From contig NZ_BDGT01000035.1 in the NCBI RefSeq assembly GCF_001748285.1, forward strand, positions 1-64,000: a stretch of 64,000 nucleotides of DNA, given 5' to 3'. Source of the DNA: Thermogemmatispora onikobensis. Lineage in GTDB: Bacteria > Chloroflexota > Ktedonobacteria > Ktedonobacterales > Ktedonobacteraceae. Position numbers and translations under genes: made by a program. Below are positions 348 through 43,162 of the stretch, one piece after another; the first letter of the stretch is position 1; each line of letters begins with the position of its first letter. A model generated the notes under the pieces. That model was given only the letters and a program-made list of their open reading frames with translations. It ran no database searches and was not told the origin of the DNA.

Positions 348-2990
348 GTGTCTGTAAAAGTGCAGCCTACCACTGCTGAAATTCGCCAACGCTTTCTGGA
401 CTTCTTTGTCCAGAAGGGCCACTATCTGATGCCCAGCTCGTCGCTCATCCCGCGCGACGATCCGACGGTGCTTCTGACCACCGCCGGCATGCAGCAGATG
501 ATTCCTTTCTTTCTGGGGCGCGAGACGCCTCCCGCCACGCGGCTCACCTCGGTGCAGAAGTGTTTCCGCACGACGGATATTGATAAAGTGGGCAATGAGC
601 GCACGCTGACCTTCTTCGAGATGCTGGGCAATTTCTCGGTGGGGGATTACTTCAAGCGCGAGGCCATCGCCTATGCCTGGGAGTTTCTGACCCAGGTGGT
701 GAAGATCCCGCCCGAGCGTCTGCACCCAACGGTTCACCCCGAGGATGACGAGGCCCCGCGCTACTGGACGGAGATCACCGGCATCCCCGATGAGGCCATT
801 GTGCGTCTGGAAGATAACTGGTGGGGGCCGCCGGGAGCCGCTGGCCCCTGTGGACCGGATTCGGAGATTTATTACGATCGCGGCGTCGAGCATGGCTGCG
901 GTAAACCAGACTGCAAGCCCGGCTGCGAGTGCGAGCGCTTCCTTGAGATCTGGAACCTGGTCTTTATGCAGTTCTATCAGGACCTCGATGGCAAGCGCAC
1001 CCCGCTGCCGCGCAAGAATATCGATACGGGCATGGGCCTGGAGCGCCTGGCGATGGTGCTCCAGGGCAAGCAGTCTGTCTTTGAGACGGATGTCTTCCGC
1101 GCGATTATCGACCGTTTTGCCACCCTGGCTGGCACGGCCTATGGCCGTGATACGCGCACCGATACCTCGCTGCGCGTGATTGCTGATCACGGGCGCGCTC
1201 TGGTCTTCCTGGCCGCCGATGGCGTCTTGCCCAGCAACGAGGGCCGCGGCTATATCTTTCGCCGCATCCTGCGTCGCGCTGTCCGTCATGGTCGCTTGCT
1301 AGGACTGGAGAAGCCATTTCTGACCGAGGCTGCCGATACGGTGATCGAGCTGATGGGCGGCCACTATCGCGAGCTGCGCCGGCATCGCGATCGCATCGTG
1401 GCGCTGCTCAGTATGGAAGAGAGGAAGTTTAATCAAACGCTCTCCACCGGTCTGCAGCTGCTGACCGAGCTGCTGACTGAGCTGAAGGAGCGTGGCGCCA
1501 CAGTCATTCCTGGGGGCGAAGCTTTCAAGCTGTACGATACCCACGGCTTTCCTCTGGAACTGACGCAAGAGATTGCAGCGGAGCAGGGCTTCACAGTTGA
1601 CGTGGCAGGCTTCGAGGAAGCGATGCGCCAGCAGCAGGAGCGCAGTCGTGCCGCCAGCCCCTTTGCCCAGGCTCGCAACGACCAGCAGCTCACCGAGATC
1701 GCTGGCCGCCTCACGCCGACCACCTTCCTCGGTTACGAAAGCACCAGCGCCAGCGGCAACATTGTAGCGCTGCTCGTCAATGGCGAAGCAGTAGAGAACG
1801 TCAGTGCACCGCAAGAGGCGCTGGTCATTCTGGATCGCACCCCGTTCTATGCCGAGAGCGGTGGCCAAATCGGTGATCGAGGCCTCCTCAAAGGGGCGGT
1901 GGGAACCTTTGTTGTCGAGGATACCCAACGTCCCGTCAAAGGTCTGATCGTCCACTATGGTCGCGTCGCTGAGGGCTACCTGGGCATTGGCGAGACGGTT
2001 CAGGCGGAGGTCGATGCCCAGCGGCGTGAAGACACCATGCGCAACCACAGCGCCACTCATCTGCTGCATAAAGCCCTGCGCGACCTGCTTGGTCCCCAGG
2101 TTGAGCAGCGTGGCTCACTGGTTGAGCCAGAGCGCCTGCGCTTCGACTTTACCTCGCCGCGTGCTCTCACAGGCGAGGACCTGGTTCGGCTCGACGAGGT
2201 AGTGAATAGCTGGATTCGCGCCGACTACCCGGTCATCACTGAAATTATGCCGCTGGAGGAGGCCCTCAAGACGGGGGCAATGGCCCTGTTCGGAGAGAAA
2301 TACGACGAACAGGTGCGCGTCGTCTCGATGGGCAGCAGCAAAGAGCTGTGTGGAGGCACACACTGCCGCGCCACCGGCCAGATCGGCATCTACGTCACCA
2401 CGCAGGAGACGAGCATTGCCGCCGGTATTCGCCGCATTGAGGCTCTCACTGGCCGCGGAGCCGAGCAGTATCTGCGCGGGCGTAAGACGCTCGTCGAAAA
2501 TCTGGCGAGCCGCTTGCAGACCCAGCCGGATCACCTGATCGAGCGCGTTGACCAACTGCGCGACGAGCTGGCCACGCTGCGCCGCCAGCTGGCGCAGTAT
2601 CAGCGAGAAGAGGCCAGGCGCCAGGCGGCCTCATTGGCAGAGCAGGCGCGCGAGGTAGGTGGTGTCCCAGTTGTGGCGGCCAGCGTTTCGGCGCCCGATG
2701 ACCGCGTGCTGCGCGAGGTCGCCGAGATGACGCGCAACAAGTTGGGACGTCCCGGTGTGGTGGCACTCGCCGCCACCTACGAGGAACGAGTGAGCGTGCA
2801 GGTCCTGGTGGCCCCCGAGCTGGTCCAACGTGGGCTCCACGCGGGCACAATTGCCTCCGCCGTTGGCCAGCGGCTTGGTGGCAGGGGCGGCGGTCGGCCA
2901 GAATATGCTCAGGGTGGCGGACGCGAGAAAGAGGCCCTCAGCGCGGCCCTGGCCCTGGTGCCCTCGCTCGTTGAACAGGCCCTGAACTGA
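348..2990 (+). CDS. alaS: Alanyl-tRNA synthetase
   Basis: Class II aminoacyl-tRNA synthetase that charges tRNA-Ala in the cytoplasm. The 880-residue length is normal for the family. The N-terminal part holds the catalytic core and the tRNA-binding region. The editing domain is marked by HSATHLLH near residue 567 and CGGTHC near 668, which together supply the zinc ligands that clear mischarged Ser/Gly-tRNA-Ala. The C-terminal part has a coiled-coil stretch and the Gly-rich DHHA1 region (GGRGGGRPEYAQGGG). The start is GTG at 348, chosen because GAGGAGG lies a few bases upstream. It is transcribed alone from the promoter at 45-73. The identification is secure. Confidence 0.98.
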   Translation: MSVKVQPTTAEIRQRFLDFFVQKGHYLMPSSSLIPRDDPTVLLTTAGMQQMIPFFLGRETPPATRLTSVQKCFRTTDIDKVGNERTLTFFEMLGNFSVGDYFKREAIAYAWEFLTQVVKIPPERLHPTVHPEDDEAPRYWTEITGIPDEAIVRLEDNWWGPPGAAGPCGPDSEIYYDRGVEHGCGKPDCKPGCECERFLEIWNLVFMQFYQDLDGKRTPLPRKNIDTGMGLERLAMVLQGKQSVFETDVFRAIIDRFATLAGTAYGRDTRTDTSLRVIADHGRALVFLAADGVLPSNEGRGYIFRRILRRAVRHGRLLGLEKPFLTEAADTVIELMGGHYRELRRHRDRIVALLSMEERKFNQTLSTGLQLLTELLTELKERGATVIPGGEAFKLYDTHGFPLELTQEIAAEQGFTVDVAGFEEAMRQQQERSRAASPFAQARNDQQLTEIAGRLTPTTFLGYESTSASGNIVALLVNGEAVENVSAPQEALVILDRTPFYAESGGQIGDRGLLKGAVGTFVVEDTQRPVKGLIVHYGRVAEGYLGIGETVQAEVDAQRREDTMRNHSATHLLHKALRDLLGPQVEQRGSLVEPERLRFDFTSPRALTGEDLVRLDEVVNSWIRADYPVITEIMPLEEALKTGAMALFGEKYDEQVRVVSMGSSKELCGGTHCRATGQIGIYVTTQETSIAAGIRRIEALTGRGAEQYLRGRKTLVENLASRLQTQPDHLIERVDQLRDELATLRRQLAQYQREEARRQAASLAEQAREVGGVPVVAASVSAPDDRVLREVAEMTRNKLGRPGVVALAATYEERVSVQVLVAPELVQRGLHAGTIASAVGQRLGGRGGGRPEYAQGGGREKEALSAALALVPSLVEQALN

Positions 2991-39052: not shown

Positions 39053-40825
39053 ATGCATATCGTACCCCTGCGTATTGCGCTAGCGCAGATCAACGTCACG
39101 GTCGGTGACCTGGACGGTAACGCCGAGAAAATCTGGACGGCCATGCGTGAGGCGCATCAGGCTGGTGCGCACATCGTCTGCACACCGGAGCTGGCGCTCA
39201 CTGGCTATCCTCCCGAGGATCTGCTGCTCAAACCGGGCTTCGTCTCCGCAAACCTGCGTCGCCTGCAGTGGCTCATCGAGCGCAGCAAGGAGCTGCCTGG
39301 GTTGACAGCGATCATCGGCTATGTTGATCGTGACGAAGACATCTACAATGCAGCAGCGGTCATCGGCGGTGGGCGCCTCTACGGCACCTACCATAAACAC
39401 TATCTACCAAACTATAGTGTCTTCGACGAGTACCGCTACTTTCAGGCCGGACGGACAGCGCCCCTCTTTCTGATCAATGGCGTCCATGTTGGCATTACGA
39501 TCTGCGAGGATATCTGGTATCCGGCTGGCCCGTTGACCCTGCAGGCCCATGCTGGAGCCGAGGTGATTATCAATATCAATGGCTCGCCCTATCATGCCGG
39601 CAAGCGCCATTTCCGTGAGCAGATGCTGGCGACGCGAGCCGCCGATAACGGCCTGATCGTGGCCTATCTGAATCTCGTCGGCGGCCAGGACGAGCTGGTT
39701 TTTGACGGCGGCAGTATGGTCTTCAACGAGCAGGGGCGGCTGATCGCGCGGGCCAAACAGTTTGAAGAGGATCTCCTGGTGGTTGATCTTGACGTTGCCT
39801 CCGTCTTCCGCTCACGGCTGCACGATCCTCGCCGGCGCCAGGAGCGACTGGAGCTGCACCCTGAAGAAGTCCCCATGATTGTCGTCTCCGCCGAGAGCAT
39901 GCCCCCGCCGACCCTGGACGGGCGCCCGCTGCTTGGTACCAGCCAGCGTATCGAACCAGCGCTAGAGCGGCTGGCAGAAATCTATGCGGCCCTCGTCTTG
40001 GGCACGCGCGACTATGTGCGCAAGACCGGTTTCAGCAAAGCCATCGTGGGACTCTCGGGCGGCATCGACTCCTCTCTGACGGCGGTCATTGCCGCCGATG
40101 CCCTGGGGGCCGAGAACGTCCTCGGTGTTTCCATGCCATCTGCTTACTCCTCCGAAGGGAGCAAGACTGATGCCCGGCAACTGGCCGAGAATCTGGGCAT
40201 CCAGCTCATCACCGTCCCCATTGAAGAGATCTTCCGCACCTCGCTGCGCGTCATGGCGCCGGCCCTGGGCGAAGGCGATCACGGCCTGGCCGCCGAAAAT
40301 CTGCAGGCGCGCATCCGGGGAAACATTCTGATGACCATCTCTAACAAGCTAGGGCCGATTGTGCTAACCACAGGCAACAAGTCCGAGATGGCCACCGGCT
40401 ACAGCACGCTCTATGGAGACATGGCTGGCGGCTTTGCCGTTCTCAAAGACGTACCCAAGACCCTGGTCTACGAGCTGAGTCGCTACCGCAACTCATTGGG
40501 CGAGCGTCCGGTCATTCCGCAGGCAGTCCTGGAAAAAGCTCCCTCAGCCGAGCTGCGTCCGGGCCAGAGAGATAGCGATAGTCTGCCGCCCTACGAGCTT
40601 CTCGACCCTATTCTCCAGGCCTATGCCGAGGAAGATCGCAGCTTTGAAGAGATGGTAGCGATGGGCTTCGATCCGGGCCTGGTTGAGCGCGTCATGCAGC
40701 TGGTCGATCGGAGTGAATACAAGCGCCGCCAGGCTCCGCCGGGAGTGAAGATAACGCCACGCGCATTTGGGCGTGATCGTCGCCTGCCGATTACGAACCG
40801 CTACCGTGATCGGCCCGAGGGATAG
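39053..40825 (+). CDS. nadE: Glutamine-dependent NAD+ synthetase
   Basis: 590 residues from ATG 39053, with GGAAGGGAG upstream; an in-frame ATG 16 codons earlier is unlikely. It makes NAD+ from deamido-NAD+, ATP and glutamine. The N-terminal nitrilase-fold glutaminase has its Glu-Lys-Cys triad: Glu in [14 protein letters not shown], Lys in [14 protein letters not shown], Cys in [10 protein letters not shown]. The C-terminal synthetase has the ATP P-loop [14 protein letters not shown] and the [18 protein letters not shown] segment. Both domains are intact, so ammonia can be supplied in cis by channelling. Confidence 0.97.
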
Positions 40826-40983: not shown

Positions 40984-41011
40984 AACCGGTGCTTTGATCG
41001 TCCCAGTGAGT

Positions 41012-41165
41012 AGCGCAAGGGCCGGGCTACAGGAGGGGCCACGGCTGACGAGGTGGGGGCTGTTCGGACGAATCAGCGGGGAGCCCCCAGGGAAGATCAC
41101 TTCCCTGTGAAGGGAGCGCACAAAACTGGCTGGCAACGGCCAGGACAAAACGCTCTCAGTGATAT
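41012..41165 (+). ncRNA. glmS self-cleaving ribozyme/riboswitch
   Basis: The leader of glmS carries the hallmarks of the glucosamine-6-phosphate-activated ribozyme. A41012 precedes GCGC, the expected cleavage site. It is followed by a GCCGGGC...GCC-CGGC stem (P1), then the invariant GCTGACGAGG, a GGGGGCT/AGCCCCC pairing around CAGCGGGG, a hairpin AGGGAA/TTCCCT, and a 3' double-helix region with CACAAAAC and CTGGC/GCCAG closed by GGAGCG/CGCTCT. Order and spacing match the known fold. When the product glucosamine-6-phosphate accumulates, the RNA cuts itself and the mRNA is destroyed. The gap to the glmS ATG is about 130 bases. The element is best known from Firmicutes. Confidence 0.9.
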
Positions 41166-41293
41166 AGCTGGAGCAGGGCTATTCCGGGCGGAAGAGGGTG
41201 CCGTCCAGGCACCGGGGGCGGCCTGTCTTTGGCGGTCTGGAGCAAACCTGTTCTCTCTATACCACATCACAGACGGAAAGGATACCCTGCCTC

Positions 41294-43162
41294 ATGTGCG
41301 GGATTATTGGCTACGTCGGTGCCGCTGGCACCGATGTTACGTCCATTTTGCTTGACGGGCTACGTCGACTTGAATACCGGGGCTATGACTCTACCGGCAT
41401 TGCTGTTCTGACGGCCAGTGGCGAATTGCAGGTCTATCGCCGTGCAGGCAAGCTGGCCAATCTGGCGGCAGCGGTCGAGAACGGGGCCCGTCCAGCCCCC
41501 GGTTCCCTGGGAATCGGTCATACCCGCTGGGCCACCCACGGGCGTCCCAGCGATACCAATGCCCACCCGCATGCCGACTGCGACGGGCTTATCACCGTGG
41601 TGCATAACGGCATTATCGAGAACTATGCCGAGCTGCGCCAGCGCCTGGAACAGGAAGGGCATTCCTTCCGTTCCGAGACCGACACCGAAGTATTGGCTCA
41701 TCTTGTTGAGCGTGCCTATCGCGGCGAAGCCCAGGGTGATCTGCTGGAGGCCGTACGTCTGGCCCTGCAGCCTGTGCGTGGCTCCTATGCTATGGCCGTC
41801 CTCTGTCGCGAGCAGCCCCAGCTTCTGGTCGGGGCGCGCTACAACGGCCCCTTCCTGGTAGTGGGCCTGGGCGAGCGCGAGCACTTTCTGGCCTCCGATA
41901 TCGCGGCCTTCCTCAAGTATACGCGGCGGGTCGTCATCATTGACGAAGGGGAACTGGTGGCCCTGCGGCCCGAGGGCCTCACCATTCAACGTCTGGATGG
42001 GACCTTTGTCGAGCGAGCCCCGACCACCGTCGAGTGGGACGCCGAAGCCGCTGAGAAGGGTGGCTACCCTCACTTCATGCTCAAAGAGATTTATGAGCAG
42101 CCAGAGGCCTTCACGCGCTCGCTGCTGGGGCGCGTGCGCGCGGGTCAGCTCTGCCTGCCCGAGTTGGAGGCGCTCCAGCACTCCGGGGCCTTGGAGAAGG
42201 TCAGGCGCATAGTCATTGTTGCCTGCGGTACCTCCTATCACGCGGGCCTGGTCGGGAAATATGTCATCGAGCGCTGGGCGCGTCTGCCCGTCGAAGTGAT
42301 CACGGCGGGAGAGTTCCGCTACGCTGATCCCCTGGTCGGGCCGGACACCCTTTGTATCGCTGTTACCCAATCGGGTGAGACCGCCGATGTGCTCGTCAGC
42401 GCACGTCAGGCGCGAGAGCAAGGGGCGCCAGTCGTGGCCATTACCAATGTTGTGGCCAGTGCAGTGACGCGACTGGCCGACGCCGTGCTCTATATTCAGG
42501 CGGGGCCGGAGATCTGCGTGGTGGCTACCAAGACCTTCATTGCCACCCTGGCCCAGCTCTACCTGCTTGGTCTCTTCCTGGGCCTACAGCGAGGCACCCT
42601 CCGTCCCGAGCGGGCCAGTGAGGTCTTGCAGGCCCTGGAGCAGCTACCGGCAAAGATTCAGCGGATTCTCGACCGCGCGGCGGCGAATGATCCCATTGCG
42701 CCACTGGCACGTGAGCTGGCCCCGCTTCAGAGCGTCATGTTCATCGGGCGCGGCGTGGGCTACCCGACAGCCCTGGAGGGTGCCCTCAAGCTCAAAGAGG
42801 TTTCCTACATCCACGCCGAGGGCTTCCCTGCTGGCGAACTCAAGCACGGCTCTATCGCCCTGCTTGATCCTGAGACGCCGCTGGTGGCCATTGCTACGGC
42901 CTCGCACGTCTACGAAAAAGTGGTCAGCAATATGCAGCAAGTCCGCGCGCGCGACGCCCGGGTGATCGCAGTGGCCACCGAGGGAGACGAAGCCATTCGC
43001 GAGCATGCCGACGTCGTCCTCTACGTACCGCCGACACTGGAGGAGCTGAGCCCTGTGCTGGCGGCGATCCCCCTTCAGCTCCTGGCCTATCACGCGGCAG
43101 TCGCCCGTGGCTGTAACGTTGATCAGCCGCGCAACCTGGCCAAGTCGGTGACCGTGGAGTAG
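41294..43162 (+). CDS. glmS: Glucosamine-fructose-6-phosphate aminotransferase (isomerising)
   Basis: 622 residues from ATG 41294. That start is required because the catalytic nucleophile is the Cys directly after Met (MCGIIGYVG). It makes glucosamine-6-phosphate from fructose-6-phosphate and glutamine, the first step to UDP-GlcNAc for the wall. Residues 1-220 are the class II glutaminase; two SIS domains follow (ACGTSYHAGLVGKYVIERWA; VTQSGETADVLVSARQA; RGVGYPTALEGALKLKEVSY). The C-terminus PRNLAKSVTVE is diagnostic. It is controlled by the upstream ribozyme. Confidence 0.98.
   Translation: MCGIIGYVGAAGTDVTSILLDGLRRLEYRGYDSTGIAVLTASGELQVYRRAGKLANLAAAVENGARPAPGSLGIGHTRWATHGRPSDTNAHPHADCDGLITVVHNGIIENYAELRQRLEQEGHSFRSETDTEVLAHLVERAYRGEAQGDLLEAVRLALQPVRGSYAMAVLCREQPQLLVGARYNGPFLVVGLGEREHFLASDIAAFLKYTRRVVIIDEGELVALRPEGLTIQRLDGTFVERAPTTVEWDAEAAEKGGYPHFMLKEIYEQPEAFTRSLLGRVRAGQLCLPELEALQHSGALEKVRRIVIVACGTSYHAGLVGKYVIERWARLPVEVITAGEFRYADPLVGPDTLCIAVTQSGETADVLVSARQAREQGAPVVAITNVVASAVTRLADAVLYIQAGPEICVVATKTFIATLAQLYLLGLFLGLQRGTLRPERASEVLQALEQLPAKIQRILDRAAANDPIAPLARELAPLQSVMFIGRGVGYPTALEGALKLKEVSYIHAEGFPAGELKHGSIALLDPETPLVAIATASHVYEKVVSNMQQVRARDARVIAVATEGDEAIREHADVVLYVPPTLEELSPVLAAIPLQLLAYHAAVARGCNVDQPRNLAKSVTVE

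Follow-up and report, generated by a model that had tools for sequence, protein, structure and literature searches.

A predicted glmS ribozyme ahead of glmS in Thermogemmatispora onikobensis and ribozyme-like RNAs ahead of nitrogen-assimilation genes in Anaerolineae

The RNA in the glmS leader

Whether the leader of glmS in Thermogemmatispora onikobensis, a member of the Chloroflexota, contains a glmS ribozyme, and how such an RNA came to be there, are the questions raised by the 64-kb stretch of DNA analyzed in this study (the window). The Rfam covariance model of the glmS ribozyme, RF00234, matched positions 41,001–41,167 of the forward strand over its full length (model positions 1–167) with 69.6 bits, well above the gathering score of 37 (E = 6.1e-14). 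The window gave no further Rfam match, and the whole genome (5.56 Mb searched) contained no further match to RF00234. A model built from 38 relatives of the class, the window copy included, gave 180 bits at the element and 4.8 bits at the next-best place in the window. The minimum free energy of the element was −73.2 kcal/mol (z = −4.96), a value reached by none of 200 shuffles, and the unconstrained fold of minimum free energy consisted of the expected nested helices P1, P2, P3, P4, and P4.1. A preliminary description of the window, which had recognized a glmS ribozyme upstream of glmS in a Chloroflexota-like genome, is supported by the model match and by its position, and the motifs on which it relied, i.e., A41012 followed by GCG (41,013–41,015), the core motif GCTGACGAGG (41,044–41,053), the GGGGGCT/AGCCCCC pairing (41,055–41,061/41,082–41,088), and CACAAAAC in the 3' domain (41,119–41,126), were all found. 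The Rfam match starts slightly 5' of the start given there, and the 3' end corresponds to the P3.1 strand at 41,159–41,163.

All features of the element lie on the forward strand, and the core is numbered here according to the 66-nt core of PMC7125110. Self-cleavage is predicted between A41012 (A-1) and G41013 (G1), at the same bond as in the preliminary description, and A-1, G1, C2, G3, and C4 are invariant in the 38 relatives. The A|GCGC motif of the cleavage site is accompanied by the conserved core GACGAGG (41,047–41,053, from the alignment). The 5' strand of P2.2, C2–G7 (41,014–41,019), pairs with the segment CAGCGG (41,074–41,079), which comprises the 3' strand of P2.2 and a core G, through C41014–G41078, G41015–C41077, C41016–G41076, and G41019–C41074 (G7–C52); the first three of these pairs are invariant, A41017 and A41075 form a mismatch, and A41018 is bulged. 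The three base pairs of P2.1 are formed by 41,049–41,051, within the conserved core, and TCG at 41,064–41,066; they are 100% paired, with one compensatory change from A-U to C-G, and complete the double pseudoknot. Alignment and fold together delineate the P1 hairpin (41,020–41,046; strands 41,020–41,028 and 41,037–41,046, with a bulged A41041 and a purine-rich loop), P2 (41,056–41,061/41,082–41,087, which 41,054–41,055 could extend), the P3 hairpin (41,088–41,107), and the P4/P4.1 domain (41,112–41,157; roles from PMC11602151). The last of these consists of P4 (41,112–41,118/41,151–41,157), the A-rich internal loop IL4 (CACAAAA/GACAAAA), and P4.1 (41,126–41,132/41,137–41,143) capped by the GNRA loop GCAA (41,133–41,136). 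The L3 segment ATCAC (41,096–41,100) pairs with the 3' tail GTGAT (41,159–41,163) to form the P3.1 pseudoknot.

These helices are supported by the alignment of the 38 class members, in which 45 base pairs were scored: 92.3% of the pair cells form standard pairs, compared with 34–43% when the partners are slid by 1–3 columns. Two-sided changes occur at 31 of the 45 pairs, including four of the five pairs of P3.1 and one pair of P2.1, while the cleavage site is invariant and GACGAGG nearly so. The six pairs counted in P2.1 and P2.2 are paired in 100% of the relatives and mostly invariant, i.e., the P2.2 pairs and two of the three P2.1 pairs never vary; the support for the double pseudoknot is therefore conservation together with the known structure, and its covariation rests on the single P2.1 pair. 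At one locus of the class (L128:2986–3156, forward strand), GACGCGG replaces the usual core sequence, and a G-C pair in P2.1 compensates for it; the residue concerned does not vary elsewhere in the class.

The window copy agrees with RF00234 in all helices, the double pseudoknot, P3.1, IL4, the GNRA loop, the cleavage site, and the place before glmS. It differs around the core, where the family consensus AUCGA...GCGGAUG is replaced by UUCGG...GCGGGGAG, a combined change shared by most of the class, and also in P2.2, where GCGCAAG/CAGCG leaves the A·A mismatch, while a U6–A53 pair is possible in most other class members. Deinococcota are reportedly the source of glmS ribozyme variants with extra stems, and many Chloroflexota copies from outside the class resemble these in having hairpins inserted between P2 and P2.1; the window copy is free of the insertion.

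Inheritance, regulation, and the P2.2 variant

The comparison with the leaders of class relatives, which had been proposed in the preliminary description, found the ribozyme in 40 of 47 genomes, placed before glmS in nearly all of them, in 24 of 26 genera, and in all 14 genomes of good quality (completeness at least 90%, contamination at most 5%). In a sample of the phylum, 125 of 400 genomes match RF00234, 111 of them above the curated score (the sampled-phylum figure is also given as 90 of 284), and a Deinococcota control genome matches as well. Of the two explanations offered earlier, wider distribution or transfer, the former is thus borne out, and the latter is not needed, because presence in the class is near-universal and the ribozyme and GlmS diverge together: among the 38 class members, ribozyme identity correlates with GlmS identity (Spearman 0.84; 0 of 999 permutations as high). 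The wider distribution itself is no surprise, since the family was known outside Firmicutes before, as a survey has reportedly described.

A recent horizontal transfer of the ribozyme-glmS unit from Firmicutes would accord with the family being best known from Gram-positive bacteria (PMC11477304), but it is very unlikely in view of its presence in 14 of the 14 good genomes and 24 of the 26 genera and of the way in which ribozyme identity follows both GlmS and taxonomic family (0.77 within families versus 0.62 between them). The correlation fits vertical descent in the class and leaves the origin undated, because a ribozyme transferred together with its gene would produce it too. An ancient transfer, older than the class, may have occurred; GlmS was compared within the class. 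A plasmid search with the leader as the query gave no match. A chance resemblance in a leader devoid of any ribozyme can practically be disregarded, given the E-value of 6e-14, the covariation, and the place before glmS in nearly all relatives. Judging from the RF00234 match, the covariation, the presence of all elements, the position before glmS, and the near-universal occurrence in the class, we consider it highly probable that the leader is a self-cleaving glmS-class ribozyme, activated by glucosamine-6-phosphate (GlcN6P) and most likely inherited vertically inside the taxonomic class. As far as can be read from its sequence, the element is a well-conserved, ordinary representative of a known family. 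That family is usually described from Gram-positive bacteria, and the element would be part of a branch of it that spans the phylum and is apparently inherited.

The ribozyme lies in the 5' UTR of glmS, 126 nt upstream of its ATG. The gene, encoding glutamine--fructose-6-phosphate transaminase (41,294–43,162, forward strand), is the predicted target of regulation; its product begins with MCGIIGYVG at ATG 41,294 and scores 786.7 bits with the family model TIGR01135 (cut-off 418), and the genome contains no other full-length glmS. Abundant GlcN6P, which GlmS produces, would bind to a pocket preformed by the P2/P2.1/P2.2 double pseudoknot, and the amine of the bound GlcN6P, which acts as the general acid in this ribozyme class (PMC6154101), would promote the cut between A41012 and G41013. 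An mRNA cut by the ribozyme is targeted for degradation (PMC11477304), and the shortened glmS mRNA would then be degraded, with RNase J as a candidate nuclease, so that GlmS synthesis would drop after the decay of the mRNA. Cleavage followed by decay is plausible because RNase J is encoded in the genome (658 bits). The same nuclease has reportedly been implicated in the decay of cleaved glmS mRNA in Bacillus subtilis. Regulation of glmS by RNA self-cleavage, as suggested in the preliminary description, can be soundly inferred. A search of the leader for a sigma-70-like promoter found none, which in Chloroflexota is weak evidence against this reading. Directly upstream of the leader lies nadE, encoding an NAD+ synthase of the PRK13981 type (39,053–40,825, forward strand).

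The P2.2 helix of the window copy raises the question of activity. In most class members, GCGCAUG stands opposite CAGCG, which allows a U6–A53 pair and leaves A5 as a bulge; the genus of the window (six of six genomes) and a few other members have GCGCAAG, which leaves an A5·A53 mismatch. In the core of the T. tengcongensis ribozyme, changes at position 5 or 53 cost ~1000-fold in vitro, but natural sequences conserve the 5/53 pair poorly, and the authors put forward other ways of pairing P2.2 in which the bulge is shifted (PMC7125110). The RNA might therefore fold as a glmS ribozyme and, owing to its weakened P2.2, be slow or inactive, serving mainly as a structured leader or an RNase target. 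The mismatch in all six genomes and the cost observed in vitro would both agree with such a loss, but an inactive ribozyme is expected to lose its core, and A-1, G1, and the core do not change within the genus, with the other core residues conserved as well, which makes slow or absent cleavage very improbable. The genus represents a natural test of the proposed shifted-bulge pairings.

RNAs before nitrogen-assimilation genes in Anaerolineae

The lead worth pursuing is a second copy of the RNA found before nitrogen-assimilation genes in Anaerolineae, another class of the Chloroflexota. The phylum survey revealed genomes with two RF00234 matches, the second of which had no glmS downstream, and a search of the order of one such genome gave matches in 105 of 151 genomes; in 52 of these, a match exceeded the curated score. 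Among loci taken from that order, with two-match genomes chosen first (the share of glmS in the set is not a census), the downstream genes besides glmS were glnA (25), glutamate-synthase-like genes (4), a glutamine synthetase gene of a second type (1), and amtB accompanied by a PII gene (1). With family models, the curated cut-offs are exceeded by GlnA and Amt, while the PII match lies below its own; the models also support the second GlnA type and the glutamate synthase domain.

The RNAs before glnA have a shifted P2.2 bulge, and in many genomes an ordinary copy exists before glmS too. A C stands at position 4 of P2.2 in 34 of the 37 glmS copies that were parsed and in 0 of 25 glnA copies, counts that are approximate since they were read by pattern; the contrast holds across several families, and the Fisher value of 2e-14 overstates the evidence because the genomes are related and not independent. 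All 37 parsed glmS copies and 11 of the 25 glnA copies have G at position 26. An assignment of this residue, the G of UGAC, as the catalytic guanine was rejected because position 26 is part of the 26·7-52 base triple (PMC7125110); the idea that catalysis is lost in some nitrogen-type copies rested on that assignment and was dropped with it.

A DNA pattern for the shifted P2.2 form, run on named genomes, matched at least 80 loci, a set that cannot measure the frequency of the shifted form because the pattern selects it. Among the matches listed, 72 of 80 belong to Chloroflexota, mostly labelled Anaerolineales or Anaerolineaceae and including the cultured Bellilinea, Levilinea, Longilinea, and Pelolinea, while the other 8 listed lack the rest of the extended core and were rejected as chance matches. 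Again among the matches listed, glnA lies downstream in 50 of the 72 Chloroflexota loci, within ~650 nt of the cleavage site in 43 and further away in 7, in six of which an ada/ogt-like gene and an EamA-like gene come before glnA; the remainder of these listed loci have glutamate-synthase-like genes (8), the second GlnA type (1), glmS (1), or no recognized gene (12, namely 11 in which the available sequence ends within 1 kb and L263, where the gene arrangement is unrelated).

In an alignment of 34 of the matches listed, 92.3% of the cells are paired, and two-sided changes occur at 27 of 44 pairs, some of them in helices that the pattern does not cover. A-1, G1, C2, G3, ACGAGG, and GCGG are invariant in these 34, with A-1, G1–G3, and ACGAGG being part of the pattern itself, and P4 as drawn holds in 59% of the cells, in a region that aligns poorly. 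The nitrogen-gene copies thus have the core residues and all helices of the family, with covariation. In a cmscan of twelve loci, L093, a separate single case, was the only one to reach the RF00234 gathering score, and the 11 loci with a nitrogen-gene copy fell below it; several glnA copies in other genomes pass it (42.9–47.7 bits). Annotation therefore finds some of these RNAs and misses many.

We lean toward the view that, in Anaerolineae, a duplicated glmS ribozyme was recruited to nitrogen assimilation as a functional regulator that has gone unreported, whichever ligand it uses. The RNA may sense GlcN6P, with a retuned threshold, as a sign of glutamine sufficiency. Alternatively, it might have drifted to another ligand, which seems the less likely option, and a rather improbable one, because the examined core residues are unchanged. 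Glutamine riboswitches of cyanobacteria (glnA RNA and Downstream-peptide RNA) act on nitrogen-assimilation genes, as the position of the Anaerolineae RNAs would allow them to do, and have an unrelated fold, in contrast with the Anaerolineae RNAs, which align to the glmS ribozyme throughout. No earlier report of the ribozyme before nitrogen genes was found in the titles and abstracts of the literature searched, the likeliest distribution surveys being outside its coverage; one survey is said to list two exceptions to the placement before glmS. If recruitment did take place, the regulon of this catalytic riboswitch would reach beyond glmS and link amino-sugar supply to glutamine synthesis, which would be a larger result than the window ribozyme and would concern an RNA often missed by current annotation.

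Individual loci with ribozyme-like RNAs

Ribozyme-like RNAs directly before glnA are found at L052, L054, L056, L059, L060 (395–602), L167, L171, L299, L305, and other loci. Those before genes with a glutamate synthase domain (L176, L201, L218, L214, L262, L271, and L279) are mixed at P2.2, with three retaining GCGC as glmS copies do. The RNA before amtB and the PII gene (L185:801–1015, forward strand) has U, not A, ahead of the cleavage site. At L093 (2872–3113, reverse strand), a ribozyme over the Rfam threshold precedes a DegT/DnrJ/EryC1 aminotransferase gene, an arrangement observed in a single genome (8% contamination). The RNAs at L235, L237, L245, L251, L282, and L296 head an apparent row of an ada/ogt-like gene, an EamA-like transporter gene, and glnA, and at L235 a 6S RNA (1595–1770, forward strand; 74 bits) lies just upstream of the ribozyme-like RNA.
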